NCBI GenBank assembly: GCA_024697065.1
Contig: JAILGE010000011.1
Span: 1 to 64,000 of the forward strand
Direction: 5' to 3'
Length of the DNA stretch: 64,000 nucleotides
DNA from: Lachnospiraceae bacterium
Lineage (GTDB): Bacteria > Bacillota > Clostridia > Lachnospirales > Lachnospiraceae
Shown one piece after another: positions 3,329-52,089 of the stretch. The notes beneath the pieces are model-generated. The model was not told the DNA's origin. It saw only the letters and a program-made list of their open reading frames with translations, and did no database searches. The position numbers were made by a program, and so were the translations under genes. The first letter of the stretch is position 1. Every line of letters starts with the position of its first letter.

Positions 3329-3778
3329 ATGAAGAAGTTTTTAAAAGAGTTTAAAGAGTTTGCATTAAGAGGTAACGTAATGGATATGGCCATCGGTGTT
3401 ATCATCGGTGGAGCTTTTACGGGAATAGTTACGGCGTTTACCGATGACTTCATCACCCCTATCCTTTCACTTATCGGTGGAACCGAATTCGGCGGAAAGA
3501 TAGTACTCGGTTCAGGTGAAGGTCAGGCTATCCTTTGGGGACATTTTGTTTCCGCAATAGTGAATTTCCTTATCATGGCACTCATTCTTTTCTGCATGCT
3601 GAAGGGTATAAATGCGCTGTTAAATCTCGGCAAGAAGAAAAAGGAAGAAGAGGCGGCAGTAGCAGAAGATCCCGCTGATATCAAGCTTATGAAAGAAATG
3701 CTTGCCATCATGAAGGAGACGAATCCCGAAGCTGCCAAAAAGGCTGAAGAAAAGCTTAAGGAAGAAGAAAAGAAATAA
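3329..3778 (+). CDS. mscL: Large-conductance mechanosensitive channel MscL
   Basis: 149 residues. MscL forms a pentameric inner-membrane pore that opens under extreme membrane tension and releases solutes on osmotic downshock. The N terminus KEFKEFALRGNVMDMAIGV is the family signature (amphipathic helix leading into TM1), TM1 continues through the Gly-rich IGVIIGGAFTGI, and TM2 lies near residues 70-95. The C terminus is a long Glu/Lys/Ala helix, as in other MscL cytoplasmic bundles. It has a good ribosome site (AAAGGAG) and is a single gene. A partial copy of the local repeat (TTCTCTTCGTG) begins at its stop codon. Confidence 0.95.
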   Translation: MKKFLKEFKEFALRGNVMDMAIGVIIGGAFTGIVTAFTDDFITPILSLIGGTEFGGKIVLGSGEGQAILWGHFVSAIVNFLIMALILFCMLKGINALLNLGKKKKEEEAAVAEDPADIKLMKEMLAIMKETNPEAAKKAEEKLKEEEKK

Positions 3779-3800
3779 TTCTCTTCGTGTGTGGGTAAGA

Positions 3801-4100
3801 ACTCAGAGAATTTTTATACAAAAATTCTCTTCGTGGAGGTAAAAGTTTGAAAGAAAACTCTGAAGAGCTTTTCTTTCAAACCGGAATTGGCGCAAAAGAA
3901 GTACGCTTCGCGTAGGCGCCAATTCCCCAACTCAGAGAATTTTCATACGAAAATTCTCTTCGTGGAGGTAAGAGTTTGAAAGAAAACTCTGAAGAGCTTT
4001 TCTTTCAAACCGGAATTGGCGCAAAAAAAAGTACGCTTCGCGTAGGCGCCAATTCCCCAACTCAGAGAATTATTATGCAATAATTCTCTTCGTGGAGGTA
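3801..4100 (+). repeat. Tandem three-hairpin repeats, each ending in a ribosome-binding sequence
   Basis: This 325-base gap holds about 2.3 copies of a 129-130 bp unit. Hairpin H1 occurs three times (3805-3830, 3934-3959, 4064-4089) as an 11-bp stem with an ATAC or ATGC loop, each followed at once by TTCGTGGAGGTA, which contains a strong Shine-Dalgarno. H2 (13-bp stem GTTTGAAAGAAAA) and H3 (outer stem GGAATTGGCGC with an inner TACGC/GCGTA stem) lie between copies. H1 stems differ by paired changes: T-A becomes C-G in the second copy, and an internal T-A flips in the third. The last H1 supplies the ribosome site of the glycosyltransferase at 4104. A further fragment (TTCTCTTCGTG) lies at the mscL stop. 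Confidence 0.9.
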
Positions 4101-4103
4101 GGA

Positions 4104-5147
4104 ATGAGCGAGAAGGTCAGCATAATAATCCCGTGCTACAATGTGGAAAAATATATCGACAGATGTCTGGAATCTATAGTGAAGCAGACTATAGGTGTAT
4201 CGGCGATACAGATAATATGTGTCAATGATCACTCTGCCGACAGAACCGGAGATAAACTTCGTGCATGGGAAAAGAAATATCCCGGTACTGTTGTTGTGAT
4301 AATGTGTGAACGCAATAACAAACAGGGTGGTGCCCGCAATATCGGAATGCAGTACGCATCCGGTGAATGGGTATCCTTCATTGATTCGGATGACTGGATC
4401 GAGCCGGACTTCTTTGAAAAGCTGTTCAAGAAGGCAGGAGAGAATACGTTTGATCTGGTTGCCTGCCGTGCGATCGATGATACCTCTACAAGACTCCGCC
4501 TTTTCGCACCGGGAGAGGATAAGGGTTCCGGCGAGAGTGAGAATGTGTTTGTTACCGATGATATGATGAGAGTACAGGTACTTCGTTCCCAGATGTTCGG
4601 AAGAGTATATCCGAGCATCGTAAGAAGAAGCTTTCTCACGACCCACAGACTTATATTCCCCGAGAGACTCAGGTATGAAGATATTTTCTACAAAGAGCTT
4701 CTCCATATGGAGGTGAGCCGTGGTGCACTCATCCATGAAGTTTTATATCATCATTTCGTTGAACAGGAATCTGCCCCTGTTGTCGGAGAGGCATATTCGC
4801 ATGTGGACTATATGACCATGCTCTCCAAGCTTTGGAGAGAGTGGGGAAGAAGAGGTTATTTCAACAGGTATGAGAATGAACTTCTTGCCGAATTCATGAA
4901 GGTGGGATATCTTGGATTCCTTCGGATCATTATCTTTGATTATGAGGAACCGCCCTATCCTTTATTCCTGCTGCTCAAGGAGATGATGCTCACTCTTACG
5001 CCTGCTGCGGACAAGAAACATTATCTGAGAAATTATCCGAATATAACTGTCAATCAGAAGGTTTGGATAGAGGCACTTTGGGGAGATGTGGACAAGGATG
5101 ATTTTGTAATGCTTGCCAACAATACAAAGGAAGCCGGAAGCTTGTGA
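4104..5147 (+). CDS. Family 2 glycosyltransferase
   Basis: 347 residues, cytoplasmic. The N-terminal GT-A domain is plain: VSIIIPCYNVEKYIDRCL, nucleotide-binding VNDHSADRT and the metal-binding DSDD at residues 94-97. GT2 enzymes move a sugar from a nucleotide donor to a glycan, lipid or protein acceptor; donor and acceptor cannot be read here. It resembles the GT2 enzyme at 11594 inside the flagellar locus. An upstream in-frame GTG at 4092 lies within the Shine-Dalgarno GGAGG (4094-4098), so ATG 4104 is the start. The ribosome site is part of the hairpin repeat. It is followed 13 bases later by another sugar-transfer-like gene, probably in the same transcript. Confidence 0.9.
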   Translation: MSEKVSIIIPCYNVEKYIDRCLESIVKQTIGVSAIQIICVNDHSADRTGDKLRAWEKKYPGTVVVIMCERNNKQGGARNIGMQYASGEWVSFIDSDDWIEPDFFEKLFKKAGENTFDLVACRAIDDTSTRLRLFAPGEDKGSGESENVFVTDDMMRVQVLRSQMFGRVYPSIVRRSFLTTHRLIFPERLRYEDIFYKELLHMEVSRGALIHEVLYHHFVEQESAPVVGEAYSHVDYMTMLSKLWREWGRRGYFNRYENELLAEFMKVGYLGFLRIIIFDYEEPPYPLFLLLKEMMLTLTPAADKKHYLRNYPNITVNQKVWIEALWGDVDKDDFVMLANNTKEAGSL

Positions 5148-12687: not shown

Positions 12688-12696
12688 ACTCTATGA

Positions 12697-12747
12697 AAGA
12701 AAACTGAAAATGGCTTTTCTCATACGAAAATTCTCTTCGTGGAGGTA
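12697..12747 (+). repeat. Rearranged copy of the hairpin-ribosome-site repeat before flgL
   Basis: Pieces of the 3.8 kb repeat are joined here: the H2 edges (GAAAGAAAACT and GCTTTTCT) run directly into the right half of H1 (CATACGAAAATTCTCTTCG) and then TGGAGGTAA, the flgL ribosome site. The left arm of H1 is lost, so only weaker pairings (AGAAAA with TTTTCT) remain. Confidence 0.75.
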
Positions 12748-20535: not shown

Positions 20536-20590
20536 TTTATAGCGGCACTTATGATAAAATAGTAATGTCGTCACATCGCGACAATTTCCC

Positions 20591-20646
20591 GACTCAGAGG
20601 ATCTTTTCGAGATTTATTCGACAGTTCTCTTCGTACAGGTAATTGT
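20591..20646 (+). repeat. Diverged copy of the hairpin-ribosome-site repeat
   Basis: GACTCAGAGG, then TTCTCTTCGT and CAGGTAATTGTTTGAAA align with the edges and centre of the 3.8 kb unit, but the H1 stem is largely lost. Here the ribosome-site part has drifted (TACAGGT), and the next gene uses a separate GAGGT at about 20665. Confidence 0.55.
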
Positions 20647-38491: not shown

Positions 38492-39910
38492 ATGGATGAT
38501 AAAGAAAAACAGCAATATATCAAAATGACACAGGTTCCGCCCGCAAAGCTCATAACGGGACTTGCGATACCTGCGATAATCAGTATGCTCACCACCATGA
38601 TATATAACCTGGTGGATGCTTTTTTTGTAGGAAGACTTGGAACTTCGGCAAGTGCAGCCATAGGAATAATCATGAGTCTGCAGGCTATGTTCCAGGCGGC
38701 GGGCTTTATGTTCGGACATGGGACAGGAAGCATAATAGGAAGGAAGCTTAGCGAAGGAAGGACGGATGATGCCAACAGATTCTTGAGTCTGGCTGTGACG
38801 GGCGGTATAACCCTGGGGTGCGTTATGATGATAGCAGGGCTGGCTTTCAGAACCCCGCTGGTATATATGCTGGGCAGCACTGATACCATACTGCCCTATG
38901 CAAAAAATTATGCTTTCTACATTCTCATTGCAGGACCGGCAATGATGGCAAGCTGCATATTGAATAATGTCATGCGTTACGAAGGAAAAGCCTTTTATGC
39001 CATGATAGGTCTGGTAAGCGGCGGCGCCATAAATATGATCGCGGACCCCATATTCATGTTCGGACTTAAGATGGGAATAAACGGAGCCGGACTTTCGACC
39101 GCTATCTCACAATATATAAGCTGTTTCCTGCTGCTTTCAATGTTTTTAACGGGAAAGACTATCTCGAGATTTTCGTTTTCAGGGTTATTTAAGAGTAAAA
39201 GAGCGGCATTTGCCGATATTTTACTGATAATCAAAACGGGTATACCGAGTCTCATCAGACAGGGACTTGGAAGTATTTCCACCATAACACTGAATCTCTG
39301 TGCGGGCCCCTACGGAGATCCGGCTATCGCCGGAATGACAATAGCCGGACGTGTGATGATGTTTATGGGCTCGGTAATGATAGGCGTGGGGCAGGGGCTT
39401 CAGCCGGTGTCGGCATTTAATTACGGAGCAAAAAAGTTTAAGAGACTCAGGGAGAGCTTTAGATTTACCTGGCTGGCAGGCACGCTGCTCATGATAGTCA
39501 TGGGAACTGCCGGATGGATATTTTCGGGTGATATAGTAAAGATCTTCATTGACGATCCGGATCCTGCAATGATCAGGCAGACGCTGGATTATGGTACGCC
39601 GGCGCTTAAATGCATGTGCATCGCGGTGATGATCCAGCCACTTAGCATCATAACCAATATGCTCTTTCAGAGTGTTGGAAAGAGTAAGAACGCATCGATA
39701 CTTGCTACTCTCAGAAGCGGTACATGTTATATCCCCGTTCTGGTTATACTGCCGTATTTTATCGGATTTGCAGGCATACAGTCCGCGCAGATGATAGCGG
39801 ATATGCTGGCCAGTCTTATCAGCATACCTTTCCTGGTACGGTTTATGAGAGAGATACCTGCAAAAGATGAGCTGACAGACATGGACAGAAAGTTGGATTT
39901 ATCCGCATAA
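38492..39910 (+). CDS. MATE family efflux transporter
   Basis: 472 residues with about 12 hydrophobic segments. MATE proteins export drugs and toxic compounds by Na+ or H+ antiport. Diagnostic stretches: LITGLAIPAIISMLTTMIYN, LVDAFFVGRLGTSASAAIGI, GAGLSTAISQ, GQGLQPVSAFNYGAKK. Start ATG 38492 is uncertain because the nearest ribosome site (AAGGAAG, about 38470) is far; the frame is open further upstream but overlaps the promoter. Divergent from GH9. Substrate unknown. Confidence 0.9.
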   Translation: MDDKEKQQYIKMTQVPPAKLITGLAIPAIISMLTTMIYNLVDAFFVGRLGTSASAAIGIIMSLQAMFQAAGFMFGHGTGSIIGRKLSEGRTDDANRFLSLAVTGGITLGCVMMIAGLAFRTPLVYMLGSTDTILPYAKNYAFYILIAGPAMMASCILNNVMRYEGKAFYAMIGLVSGGAINMIADPIFMFGLKMGINGAGLSTAISQYISCFLLLSMFLTGKTISRFSFSGLFKSKRAAFADILLIIKTGIPSLIRQGLGSISTITLNLCAGPYGDPAIAGMTIAGRVMMFMGSVMIGVGQGLQPVSAFNYGAKKFKRLRESFRFTWLAGTLLMIVMGTAGWIFSGDIVKIFIDDPDPAMIRQTLDYGTPALKCMCIAVMIQPLSIITNMLFQSVGKSKNASILATLRSGTCYIPVLVILPYFIGFAGIQSAQMIADMLASLISIPFLVRFMREIPAKDELTDMDRKLDLSA

Positions 39911-39940
39911 TATGGTAAAATTATGCACGATAATGCTCGT

Positions 39941-39962
39941 TCGAAATTTTCTTCGTGGAGGT
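39941..39962 (+). repeat. Short piece of the hairpin-ribosome-site repeat
   Basis: TTCGAAATTTTCTTCGTGGAGGT matches the right arm of H1 and the ribosome site (one insertion relative to TTCTCTTCGTGG); the left arm is absent. It precedes the small protein at 39974. Confidence 0.5.
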
Positions 39963-39973
39963 GGAACGTAACA

Positions 39974-40628: not shown

Positions 40629-43001
40629 ATGATACTTGATGAAATATCGGAAAAAGTTATGCATCAGGCACTTATGCTTGCTGCCAGGGTCGGCAGCGAG
40701 TATGTCACACCGGAGCATATAATGTATGCGGCGACGGAAGTGCCTTTATTTCAGCGCACCGTAAAGATGATGGAAGGAAACATCAATGATCTGAGAAATA
40801 ATCTTACGGAGTTCATAAATGACAAGATCCCGAAACGAAAGGATCTGTCGGATACGAATATGGAAAACAGGATCTCGGATTCTTTTGCATCCACAATTGA
40901 GATCGCAGTCGAAACTGCCCGGGAAAGCGACGAGGATAAGGTCAGGCTCGATCACATAATTTGGGGTATTTCCCAGCAAAATGAGAGTTTTGCCATTTTC
41001 TATCTTGTGTCGGAAGTGGGGAACATTGAAGAGTTTCTCAATACCATGCAGCTTCTTGCCCGGGGAATTGAAGAAAAGGATTACAAGGATAATGATGATT
41101 TTACGGACAATCCCGAGGAATTCATCCTGGACTATGCGGATGTGTTAAATGAAAAGGTAAAAAACAGGGATGAGCTCATAGGACGGGATAAAGAGATTGA
41201 CCGTATGATACGCATACTTCTCAGACGTGAGAAGAACAATCCCATCCTTATAGGTGAACCGGGAGTTGGCAAGACAAGTATCGTATATGGATTGGCCCGA
41301 CGCATCAACGAAGGGCTGGTTCCTGATGCTCTTAAGGGATCAAAGATATACAGGCTGGATGTAGCAGAGCTCCTTGCCGGGACTCAGTATCGTGGTGATT
41401 TCGAACTCAGGTTCAAAGAGCTGATGGATGCTTTCGGTGAAATGGATTCGCCCATAGTGTTTATTGATGAGATACACAGCATAATCGGAGCAGGACAGAT
41501 GGGAAACGGATCTTCCGATGTATCGAGTATGTTAAAGCCCTATCTTGAGGAAGGGAAGATACGCTTTATCGGAACCACAACCTATTCCGACTACAGGAGA
41601 TATCTGGAAAAGAATACTACTCTCGTCAGACGCTTTCAGAATATAGATGTGAAGGAACCTGATGAAGAAGAGACGGTAAAGATACTTGAGGGATTACGTC
41701 CCGGATATGAGAAATTCCATGGCGTTAAGTATGCAAAAGATGCGCTGCCATATGCGGTCCGACTCAGCAGGAATTTTATCGGAGGAAGATTCCTTCCCGA
41801 TAAAGCTATCGATCTGATAGACGAAGCGGGAGCGTACAGACGCATGCATCCCATCGATGGTCAGAAAAGACAGACTGTGGGTAAAGATGTTATTGAAACA
41901 GTGCTTTCAGAGATCGGCAATATACCCAAGGCTACGGCGGAACAGTCTGAAGTTGACAGATTAAAGGATCTGTACGGAAGGATCACAGCGAAGATATTCG
42001 GTCAGGATGAAGCGGTTCATAAGATCGTGGATGCAATACTCATGAGCAGAGCAGGTCTCGTCGCAGACAATAAGCCTATTGCATCCTTCCTCTTCGTGGG
42101 ACCTACAGGTGTCGGCAAGACAGAAGTGGCAAAGGTTCTGGCTTCGGAGCTTGGTATAGGTTTTGTGCGCTTCGATATGAGTGAATATATGGAAAAGCAT
42201 ACGGTATCAAAGCTTATCGGATCCCCGGCCGGATATGTGGGATATGAAGACGGAGGGCTGCTTACGGATGCCATAAACAAGACGCCGAATTGCGTGCTGC
42301 TCCTTGATGAGATAGAAAAAGCTCATCCGGATATTTACAATGTGCTCCTGCAGGTAATGGATTATGCTTCTCTCACCGACAGCAGAGGAAAGAAGGCGGA
42401 TTTCAAGAACGTCATTATCATCATGACATCCAATGCCGGAGCTAGGCTTATCGGAAAGCAGTCTATAGGATTCGGAGCACAGACATTCAATGACGGTGTG
42501 ATGATGGAAGAGGTAAAGAGAGTATTCTCACCCGAATTCAGAAACAGGCTGAGTGCTATCGTAAGCTTCAACCATATGAGCGAGAAGATGGCAGGACAGA
42601 TAACACAGAAGAAGCTTGATGAGCTCATTGTAAAGCTTACTGCAAAGAATATTAAGATCACTGTCGATCAGAAAGCTGTCAGCTATATAAGGAGCAAAGG
42701 GATCACGAGAGAATACGGTGCCAGAGAGATCGAGCGTGTGATAGATACTCAGATCAAGCCTTTATTCGTATCCGAAATACTTTTCGGAAAGCTTAGAAAC
42801 GGAGGCAAAGCGGTACTCACTACCGGTGTGGATGAGACTTCTAAAAGATCAAATGCTGAGAAGGGCCGTGTGAAAAAATCGGGTAAGACAGATACGGAGA
42901 GATTATCGGTAAAAAAAGCGGATCGTTCTTCGGATAAACCACTGCTCATAGTTGAGAAAGCGAAAGTCGCTGTCAGAAAGAAACAGGAAGATAAAGTTTG
43001 A
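40629..43001 (+). CDS. clpA: ATP-dependent Clp protease ATP-binding subunit ClpA
   Basis: 790 residues. Clp N-domain (1-145), AAA module 1 with GEPGVGKTS (about 208) and [16 protein letters not shown] module 2 with GPTGVGKTE (about 490) and [20 protein letters not shown], and the D2-small domain. The IGF tripeptide for ClpP docking is in KQSIGFGAQ. There is no middle M-domain between the modules, which marks ClpA rather than ClpB/C. The last 50 residues are a Lys/Ser-rich tail not usual in ClpA. Same operon as clpS. Confidence 0.95.
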
Positions 43002-43026
43002 GATTTCTCTTCATGGAGGTTTGAAA

Positions 43027-51876: not shown

Positions 51877-52089
51877 AGCCGTGTGGTCGGCTGGGCTTTG
51901 GCCGGTATGGCTGCCCGGTATAAGTGACGTTGATCTCCGGGTCTTGCGCAATGCGTGCCTGCGAACCGTGTCAGGGTGGGAACACAGCAGCACTAAGTGG
52001 GAATGTCGCATGTGACGTGAGGGTTCCTGGAAGGAGTTAACTGTACCGGTAACGCATATCGGTGTCACTCGCCGGCCGCATGGTTTTTT
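51877..52089 (+). ncRNA. ffs: Signal recognition particle RNA (long, with Alu-like domain)
   Basis: The S-domain core is perfect: GTCAGG (51970-51975), GTG-GGAA-CAC tetraloop hairpin, AGCAGC (51986-51991), which bind Ffh. Flanking arms pair over a long distance (5' GCCGTG region with the 3' CCGCATGG region), and the 5' part holds additional hairpins like the Alu domain of Clostridia and Bacillus SRP RNAs. A terminator-like CGGCCGCATGG then seven T ends it. The length of about 213 bases is shorter than the usual 265, so the 5' end is approximate. It lies next to tadA, as in many Clostridia. Confidence 0.9.

Follow-up and report, generated by a model that had tools for sequence, protein, structure and literature searches.

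Why three hairpins, each ending in a Shine–Dalgarno (SD) sequence, should stand in line before a single gene start is the question raised by the interval between an mscL-like gene and a glycosyltransferase gene in a Lachnospiraceae genome (G000; 2.69 Mb in 44 contigs). The window, that is, the whole stretch of 64,000 nucleotides that was analysed (G000:C12:1-64000), contains at 3796-4103 three H1 hairpins of 11 bp, with TTCGTGGAGGTA after each of them and two H2-H3 hairpin pairs in between. From the upstream gene, which we take from its sequence to be mscL, to the glycosyltransferase gene the order is H1-SD / H2-H3-H1-SD / H2-H3-H1-SD (Table 1). All three H1 loops comprise 4 nt, and only the third H1-SD has a gene directly 3' of it, while the left end of the first H2, GTTTGAAAG, places a TTG codon 7 nt 3' of the preceding SD. 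The minimum free energy of 3779-4110 is -130.9 kcal/mol (z -9.5), and none of 100 shuffled sequences was as stable. A previous sequence-only reading had described the stems with their tails and had pointed to paired changes between the H1 copies, from T-A to C-G beside the loop and from T-A to A-T inside the third copy; direct inspection and repeat finding agree with the former, and the latter are confirmed. We consider, with a probability of about 0.7, that the array marks a place invaded by a small, non-autonomous element, dispersed in Lachnospiraceae, that lands between an SD and a start codon and re-supplies the SD. A full unit of it, about 130 nt long, comprises H2-H3-H1 followed by a 3' tail that terminates in an SD belonging to the element.

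Table 1. Features of the array, its neighbouring genes and damaged copies elsewhere in the window (R1 and R2, covariance models described in the text).
Feature	Position	Strand	Basis
mscL-like upstream gene	3329..3778	+	ORF list; homologues in 29/34 genus genomes
Degraded fourth tail TTCTCTTCGTGTGTGGGTAAGA of an older unit, 3' of the mscL-like stop and 5' of the array	3779..3800	+	sequence
H1 copy 1, 11 bp, loop ATAC	3805..3830 (arms 3805-3815/3820-3830)	+	R1, 65.5 bits
SD GGAGG of unit 1, adjoining H2 copy 1	3835..3839	+	sequence
H2 copy 1	3845..3881	+	13-bp arms, 100%; R2
H3 copy 1, GGAATTGGCGC / GCGCCAATTCC, inner ACGC-TTC-GCGT hairpin	3883..3926	+	sequence, R2
H1 copy 2, 11 bp	3934..3959 (arms 3934-3944/3949-3959)	+	R1, 72.3 bits
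SD GGAGG of unit 2	3964..3968	+	sequence
H2 copy 2	3974..4010	+	repeat finding, R2
H3 copy 2	4012..4056	+	sequence, R2
H1 copy 3, TTATT ATGC AATAA variant, 11 bp	4064..4089 (arms 4064-4074/4079-4089)	+	R1, 66.9 bits
SD GGAGG of downstream gene	4094..4098	+	5-nt spacing to ATG 4104
Downstream gene, family 2 glycosyltransferase	4104..5147	+	Pfam PF00535, 4.9e-34
5'-truncated copy, half H1 + TTCGTGGAGGTA, before gene start 12752 (presumably a flagellar-type gene)	12696..12747	+	R1, E 0.03
Decayed copy, H1-like, altered SD, then H2-like GTTTGAAAAG, before gene start 20675	20587..20641	+	R1, E 0.3

The hairpins of the array recur throughout the genome. With the array as query, BLASTN gave 16 matches, a number that counts the array itself and its self-palindromes. 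When up to 2 mismatches are allowed, the tail TTCTCTTCGTGGAGGT occurs at 33 places; allowing 3 brings the pattern near its backward control (71 vs 47 in all). Among 30 tail places that were read, 24 have their end no more than 12 bases from an ATG, four are tandem-internal, and two are neither (L045, L048), with H1 intact in some of them and decayed or truncated in others. H1 arms drifting without pairing, which the sequence-only reading had set against a selected structure, were seen only in decayed copies that retain the tail, and a recent duplication limited to this site, its other reservation, is excluded by the dispersed copies. Two further tails in the window, TTTTCTTCGTGGAGGT and TTCTCTTCATGGAGGT (39906-39963 and 42990-43021), stand before gene starts with no clear hairpin and could be decayed copies or due to chance. 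The sole Rfam match in the window is a large bacterial SRP RNA at 51879-52083 on the forward strand (95.4 bits).

A covariance search of this genome and of related Lachnospiraceae, which the sequence-only reading had advised, found dispersed copies with two models. R1, which describes H1 plus the SD and was built from 16 copies picked for having the hairpin, gave 17 matches at E ≤ 3e-10 in the own genome (G000) and, at E ≤ 1e-5 among 60 genomes, matched in 11 of the 35 genomes of the genus (the own genome included) and in none of the 25 others, two of which contain weak palindromic matches (E 0.001-0.04). R2, built from nine sequences of H2-H3 alone and blind to H1 and the SD, matched in 15 of the 35 genus genomes (E ≤ 0.01), in 13 of 392 genomes of the order at E ≤ 0.001 (G325 and G396 among these were judged to be chance, as was G024), and in 17 of 397 sampled family genomes, from 14 of 334 genera, at E ≤ 1e-5. 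Scanning 84,980 species genomes with a sequence pattern yielded 15 stretches, ten of them in Lachnospiraceae bacterium NK4A179 and one each in three Lachnospiraceae MAGs, Rhizobium, and Streptomyces; those in Rhizobium and in the MAG ABMPRH_260_1 seem to have arisen by chance within coding DNA. That from a distant phylum, in Streptomyces sp. BV286 (L058, 4696-4725, reverse strand) is a lone, H1-SD-like hairpin with TTCGTGGAGGC before an ATG, by chance or convergence. Carriage by phages was looked for with two narrow exact patterns, which had no match in viral contigs. Copies of the element are alike within one species and differ between species. Moreover, genome G013 contains five identical H1-SD copies at five sites (L143-L147), which suggests a recent spread in that lineage, and two of these (L143 and L144) are H1-only copies with a common left boundary, TCCCGACTC, which gives the impression that H1-SD is able to move by itself.

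Most full units lie, in a single orientation, between an SD, either the gene's own or the tail of the previous unit, and a start codon, and units also occur in tandem. This placement was assessed in 82 R2 matches drawn from the genus (E ≤ 0.01) and order (E ≤ 0.001) searches, leaving out eight antisense palindrome matches and five others (contig edge or not fetched) and without counting the additions of the family search. On the right side, 71 of the 82 H2-H3 matches are followed within 135 nt by an SD, a start codon, and an ORF that spans 50 codons or more; in the control, this holds for 25.7% of 1305 random positions. On the left side, an SD tetramer (GGAG, GAGG, AGGA, or GGGG) occurs at most 16 nt before the left end in 62 of the 80 assessable matches, against 16.9% in the control; an earlier left-side count had given 23 of 29, against 16.6% of 506 control windows. 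Thus, most full units are situated between two SDs, the second of which precedes a gene, and a preceding unit supplies some of the left SDs through its tail. The insertion-side rule tested, namely, that full units lie 3' of a short SD tetramer in one orientation, holds for the same 62 of 80. The 11 matches that failed on the right side (18 failed on the left) include tandem-internal ones (L224, L248, and one of L339), matches that contain the ATG and represent deletion derivatives (L241, L246), and others due to chance (L235, L325). Ten additions from the family search, read by eye, have a left SD in eight cases and a right SD with a start codon in eight. In H1-only copies, a left-edge SD is not enriched (19 of 64 vs 24% in the control). 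The sequence-only reading had missed the SD that stands immediately before the start of full copies, as well as the pairing of a loop with the SD flank in relatives.

The left end of the element provides an ATG, GTG, or TTG in 67 of the 82 R2 matches. In 58 copies with an assigned gene start, the frame opened by the left end stops within -20 to +10 of that start in seven, and the three frames are represented 27, 20, and 11 times; thus, since a start codon is supplied but its frame is not conserved, coding is not supported. A conserved leader peptide was rejected, as lengths, stops, and frames vary. At L232 and L252 (G007:C149 and G018:C114), a short unit devoid of H1 stands before a gene whose start context, GATTGAA, resembles the left end of the element.

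By sequence comparison, three loci have orthologous sites that lack the unit and in which SD and start codon follow each other directly. The clearest case of a site lacking the unit is found at a presumably deformylase-like gene located after what we take to be a priA-like gene, where G034 carries the H2-H3-H1 unit and the 20 other genus genomes examined are all devoid of it. Seventeen of these 20 have a plain SD-ATG leader, such as AAAACGGAGGTACGCACC-ATG in the own genome, and the other three (G003, G008, and G026) have a GC-rich palindrome and AGAAGGAG or AGAAAGGAG before the ATG, a state that could have arisen by loss through recombination between two tails. The leader of G034 is homologous to that of G026 (AAAGAGAAACGCAAAGGCGGCAGAAAGGAG vs AAAGAGAACCGCAAAGGCGGCAGAAGGAGG), and the full unit with its own SD sits between this homologous leader and the ATG. 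At the C2 locus, which precedes a transglycosylase gene (PF00912), G027 has CATCTTTGAGGTACAGAC-ATG and the own genome has TATCTTTAGAGGTATAAG, a tandem array, and then GGAGGGTATAAAA-ATG; the SD located 5' of this array may be an old native SD or an older decayed tail, and G027 may bear a decayed unit rather than a never-invaded site. The third locus is the junction in the window itself. In G008 and G034, the mscL-like gene is followed, after a short spacer without an array, by the glycosyltransferase gene (57% identity), and these sites may likewise represent decayed units rather than never-invaded ones, while G027 (91% identity) has a deletion derivative with a tail, TTCTCTTCGTGTGAAGGTAAGA, similar to TTCTCTTCGTGTGTGGGTAAGA, at the corresponding place. 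Sites without the unit could also be explained by its precise loss through recombination between the flanking SD repeats. Together with the dispersal and the patchy distribution, these sites favour the mobile leader that had been listed among the possible roles of the array. The acetate kinase gene (L183, L185, L186, L187) has H1-SD in G000 and G027, a full unit in G002, an apparent remnant of the type B described below in G034, and none in G020, G003, G026, G004, and G022, in a comparison where 9 of the 30 fetched loci were parsed by script.

The retention of pairing in diverged and orthologous copies supports selection on the structure of H1, as had been proposed from the paired changes in the array. 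In the 16 copies of the R1 model, which were chosen for the hairpin, 96.6% of the cells pair and double changes affect 6 of the 11 pairs; the covariation score of 0.452 (0.185 in shuffled alignments) was equalled in none of 500 shuffles and lies above that of all slid registers. The tally in 81 unique sense copies, obtained from 101 matches by removing 14 antisense palindrome rows and merging identical ones, is 786 Watson–Crick, 46 G-U, 12 A-C, and 21 other cells. Seven orthologous gene groups have copies in more than one genome. In three orthologous pairs, 11 H1 pairs differ in total and the pairing is never broken: there are two double changes at an ABC-type gene of the own genome and G027, one double and four single changes between G003 and G026, and four single changes in the first pair from G034 and G008. 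Among the others, the acetate kinase copies of the own genome and G027 differ by one A-U to G-U change, a further G034/G008 pair (L155/L158) has an identical stem, the H1 of G033 has a one-base bulge in its comparison with G013 (L146/L152), and the pair formed by the window and G027 includes the deletion derivative. The H2 and H3 hairpins of the type C copies described below are near perfect, with G-U and A-C cells numbering 3 and 3 in H2 and 4 and 2 in H3, that is, with no G-U excess, and thus their pairing could be maintained at the DNA level. Correction of palindromes at the DNA level as the full cause of the H1 covariation is disfavoured by the 46 G-U against 12 A-C cells, an excess that might also stem from folding of the top DNA strand or from a bias of the model towards G-U.

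Three subfamilies were defined by reading the copies. Type A (own genome, G002, G013, G014, G027, and G033) has the form H2-H3-H1-TTCGNGGAGG; type B (G034, G008, and G026) has an additional GCCGC..GCGGC hairpin before AGAAAGGAGG; and in type C (G018, G011, G022, and other genera) the loop of H3 shows complementarity to the nucleotides that immediately precede the SD, as in CCGCAGGCAC/GTGCCTGCGG, TCGCAGACGT/ACGTCTGCGG, CCGGAGCGT/ACGCTCCGG, and TCAGAGC/GCTCTGA. In 39 type C units (4 of 43 were dropped), with kinship within genomes uncorrected, the mean complementary run is 7.56, against 5.13 with tails permuted (0/500) and 3.64 with tails shuffled; the run reaches at least 6 in 34 of the 39 units and lies 3-6 nt from the SD in 33. 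A looser pseudoknot statistic is weaker, with a mean longest run of 8.3 vs 7.2 for the tails of other genomes. In type A, to which the window belongs, no convincing pseudoknot pairing was seen by eye. The pre-SD bases of types B and C, for example in L336, can pair in two ways, locally as a GGCAC/GTGCC hairpin or with the loop of H3, which might constitute a switch.

In the own genome, Pfam matches were obtained for nine of ten downstream genes, in several unrelated families (two glycosyltransferases, a transglycosylase, an ABC protein, a tRNA-synthetase-type protein, an oxidoreductase, a dihydrofolate reductase, and two TPP enzymes), and the tenth had no Pfam match at E ≤ 1e-10. Most downstream genes are not common to the sampled species, several of whose genomes are incomplete; the downstream proteins of 87 match rows include seven shared groups. 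This variety bears on the foremost alternative, a cis-regulatory RNA regulon in which the hairpins would bind a protein, a metabolite, or a small RNA and control the translation of many genes. The position directly before start codons, the covariation of H1, orthologous copies included, and the loop pairing in relatives would all suit such a role; nevertheless, we regard it as unlikely, since the genes belong to unrelated families mostly unshared between the sampled species, orthologous sites lack the unit, units are found in tandem, copies are alike within a species and different between species, and the left edge sits on an SD.

Still less probable is an ordinary palindromic repeat of the BOX, REP, or MITE kind, unrelated to translation, whose copies before gene starts would survive because their SD-like end is harmless. 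The copy number, the palindromes, and the modular, tandem architecture do recall BOX-type repeats, H2 and H3 pair without a wobble excess, and Rfam had no match in 11 element loci (the best sub-threshold match of the array scored 25.5 bits against a cut-off of 69). However, such a repeat leaves both the left-edge SD (62/80) and the SD with a start codon on the right (71/82) unexplained, and the pneumococcal BOX and RUP repeats are, according to the accessible part of the source, over-represented between convergent genes, unlike the copies described here (PMC3049150). In the same text, BOX (boxA-boxB(n)-boxC) is called parasitic and can affect downstream genes; it resembles the element in being small, dispersed, hairpin-forming, and modular, with variable tandem units, and, compared by description and not by sequence, differs in not being tied there to an SD or a start codon (PMC3049150).

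In the literature searched, mostly without subscription papers, no description or name for such an element was found, in keeping with the earlier statement that no named family fits. Neisseria REP2 repeats also lie upstream of genes and carry a ribosome-binding site, but they bring a promoter as well and serve a contact-regulated gene set, and we know of no insertion of REP2 between an SD and a start codon. REP/RAYT sequences, in the accessible text, are likewise short palindromes, and they possess a short conserved foot such as GTAG (PMC2817692). The units described here differ in their length of about 130 nt and their three hairpins, and in preceding start codons in a single orientation. The TAACTGA repeats of Beggiatoaceae are, in the portion of the paper available, mostly located no more than several nucleotides upstream of the start codons of unrelated genes, as the element is, and a role in translation has been suggested for them; in contrast to it, they are unstructured heptamer direct repeats in genomes where canonical ribosome-binding sites are rare (PMC4679880). 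Two surveys of bacterial RNA motifs do not mention Lachnospiraceae in their accessible parts, and one of them includes a class of mobile or repeat sequence candidates, often beside transposase genes (PMC11109978, PMC8632094).

A thermometer-like role had been left open by the sequence-only reading. An RNA thermometer or SD gate, in which H1 and an upstream CCCCA, able to pair with UGG-A-GG in full A-type copies, would sequester GGAGG until melted, is highly improbable, since the mean predicted probability of the SD being unpaired is the same as at other ORF starts (0.45 in 75 copies vs 0.49 in 28 other ORF starts of the window with an SD, P=0.40, at 37 °C only), CCCCA is missing in many copies, and the functions of the downstream genes are unrelated. 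With the 50 upstream bases shuffled, the probability is slightly lower, at 0.37 (P 0.003).

Returning to the mobile element at gene starts, whose active movement and targeting we infer, an enzyme or process would place the unit immediately ahead of the start codon, on the 3' side of an SD-like sequence. With an SD at the end of the unit, a ribosome-binding site would be preserved for the invaded gene and the insertion would be tolerated, and this new terminal SD would make the site a target again, which would result in tandem arrays. Once transcribed, the unit would fold into a compact leader whose end lies immediately 5' of the SD, with the SD remaining roughly as accessible as it is at other ORF starts. 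Over time, H2-H3 would be lost and H1-SD kept, apparently because H1 aids the leader. The mobilising gene was not found: the Y1 transposase family PF01797, to which RAYTs presumably belong, has no match in G000; of the 11 strong carriers, some of them incomplete, only G002 and G027 have it and nine, the own genome among them, lack it, and it occurs altogether in 15 of the 35 genus genomes. Since PF01797 does not track the carriers, mobilisation by Y1 or RAYT was rejected as an established fact. No convincing target-site duplication was seen in flanks read by eye, where the spacers are A-rich and too short to decide. As a guess by analogy, the likeliest mobility would be single-strand insertion beside a short fixed sequence, like that of IS200/IS605-type elements, whose terminal hairpins TnpA recognises as single strands. 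The ends-only derivatives of these (PATEs) are described, in the accessible part of the source, as having hairpin ends, no inverted repeats, and no target-site duplication, and as inserting 3' of a specific tetra- or pentanucleotide (PMC7290912); from insertion of this kind, 3' of a fixed sequence, a single orientation relative to the target would follow. Unlike PATEs, the element has neither a full-length parent that could be found nor a Y1 transposase in the own genome and most carriers.

Tentatively, and at slightly less than even odds, the element may represent a class for which the SD is the target and also forms the right end; it would enter between SD and start codon, give the old SD a start codon (ATG, GTG, or TTG), and end in a new SD. 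Such elements would fold as RNA, in some genera with a conserved pseudoknot between loop and SD flank, and would have spread through many Lachnospiraceae genera by repeatedly re-wiring the translation initiation of unrelated genes. Dispersed bacterial repeats are usually seen as intergenic passengers, whereas here a structured repeat is found at one exact place and carries the very signal that it displaces. With mobility confirmed, the filled, tandem, decayed, and empty sites would provide natural series for testing the effect of leader hairpins on translation. An insertion rule of this kind, 3' of an SD, also suggests that mobilisation proceeds by an unknown process. If its mobility is confirmed, a mobile element can swap ribosome-binding sites and 5' leaders gene by gene.
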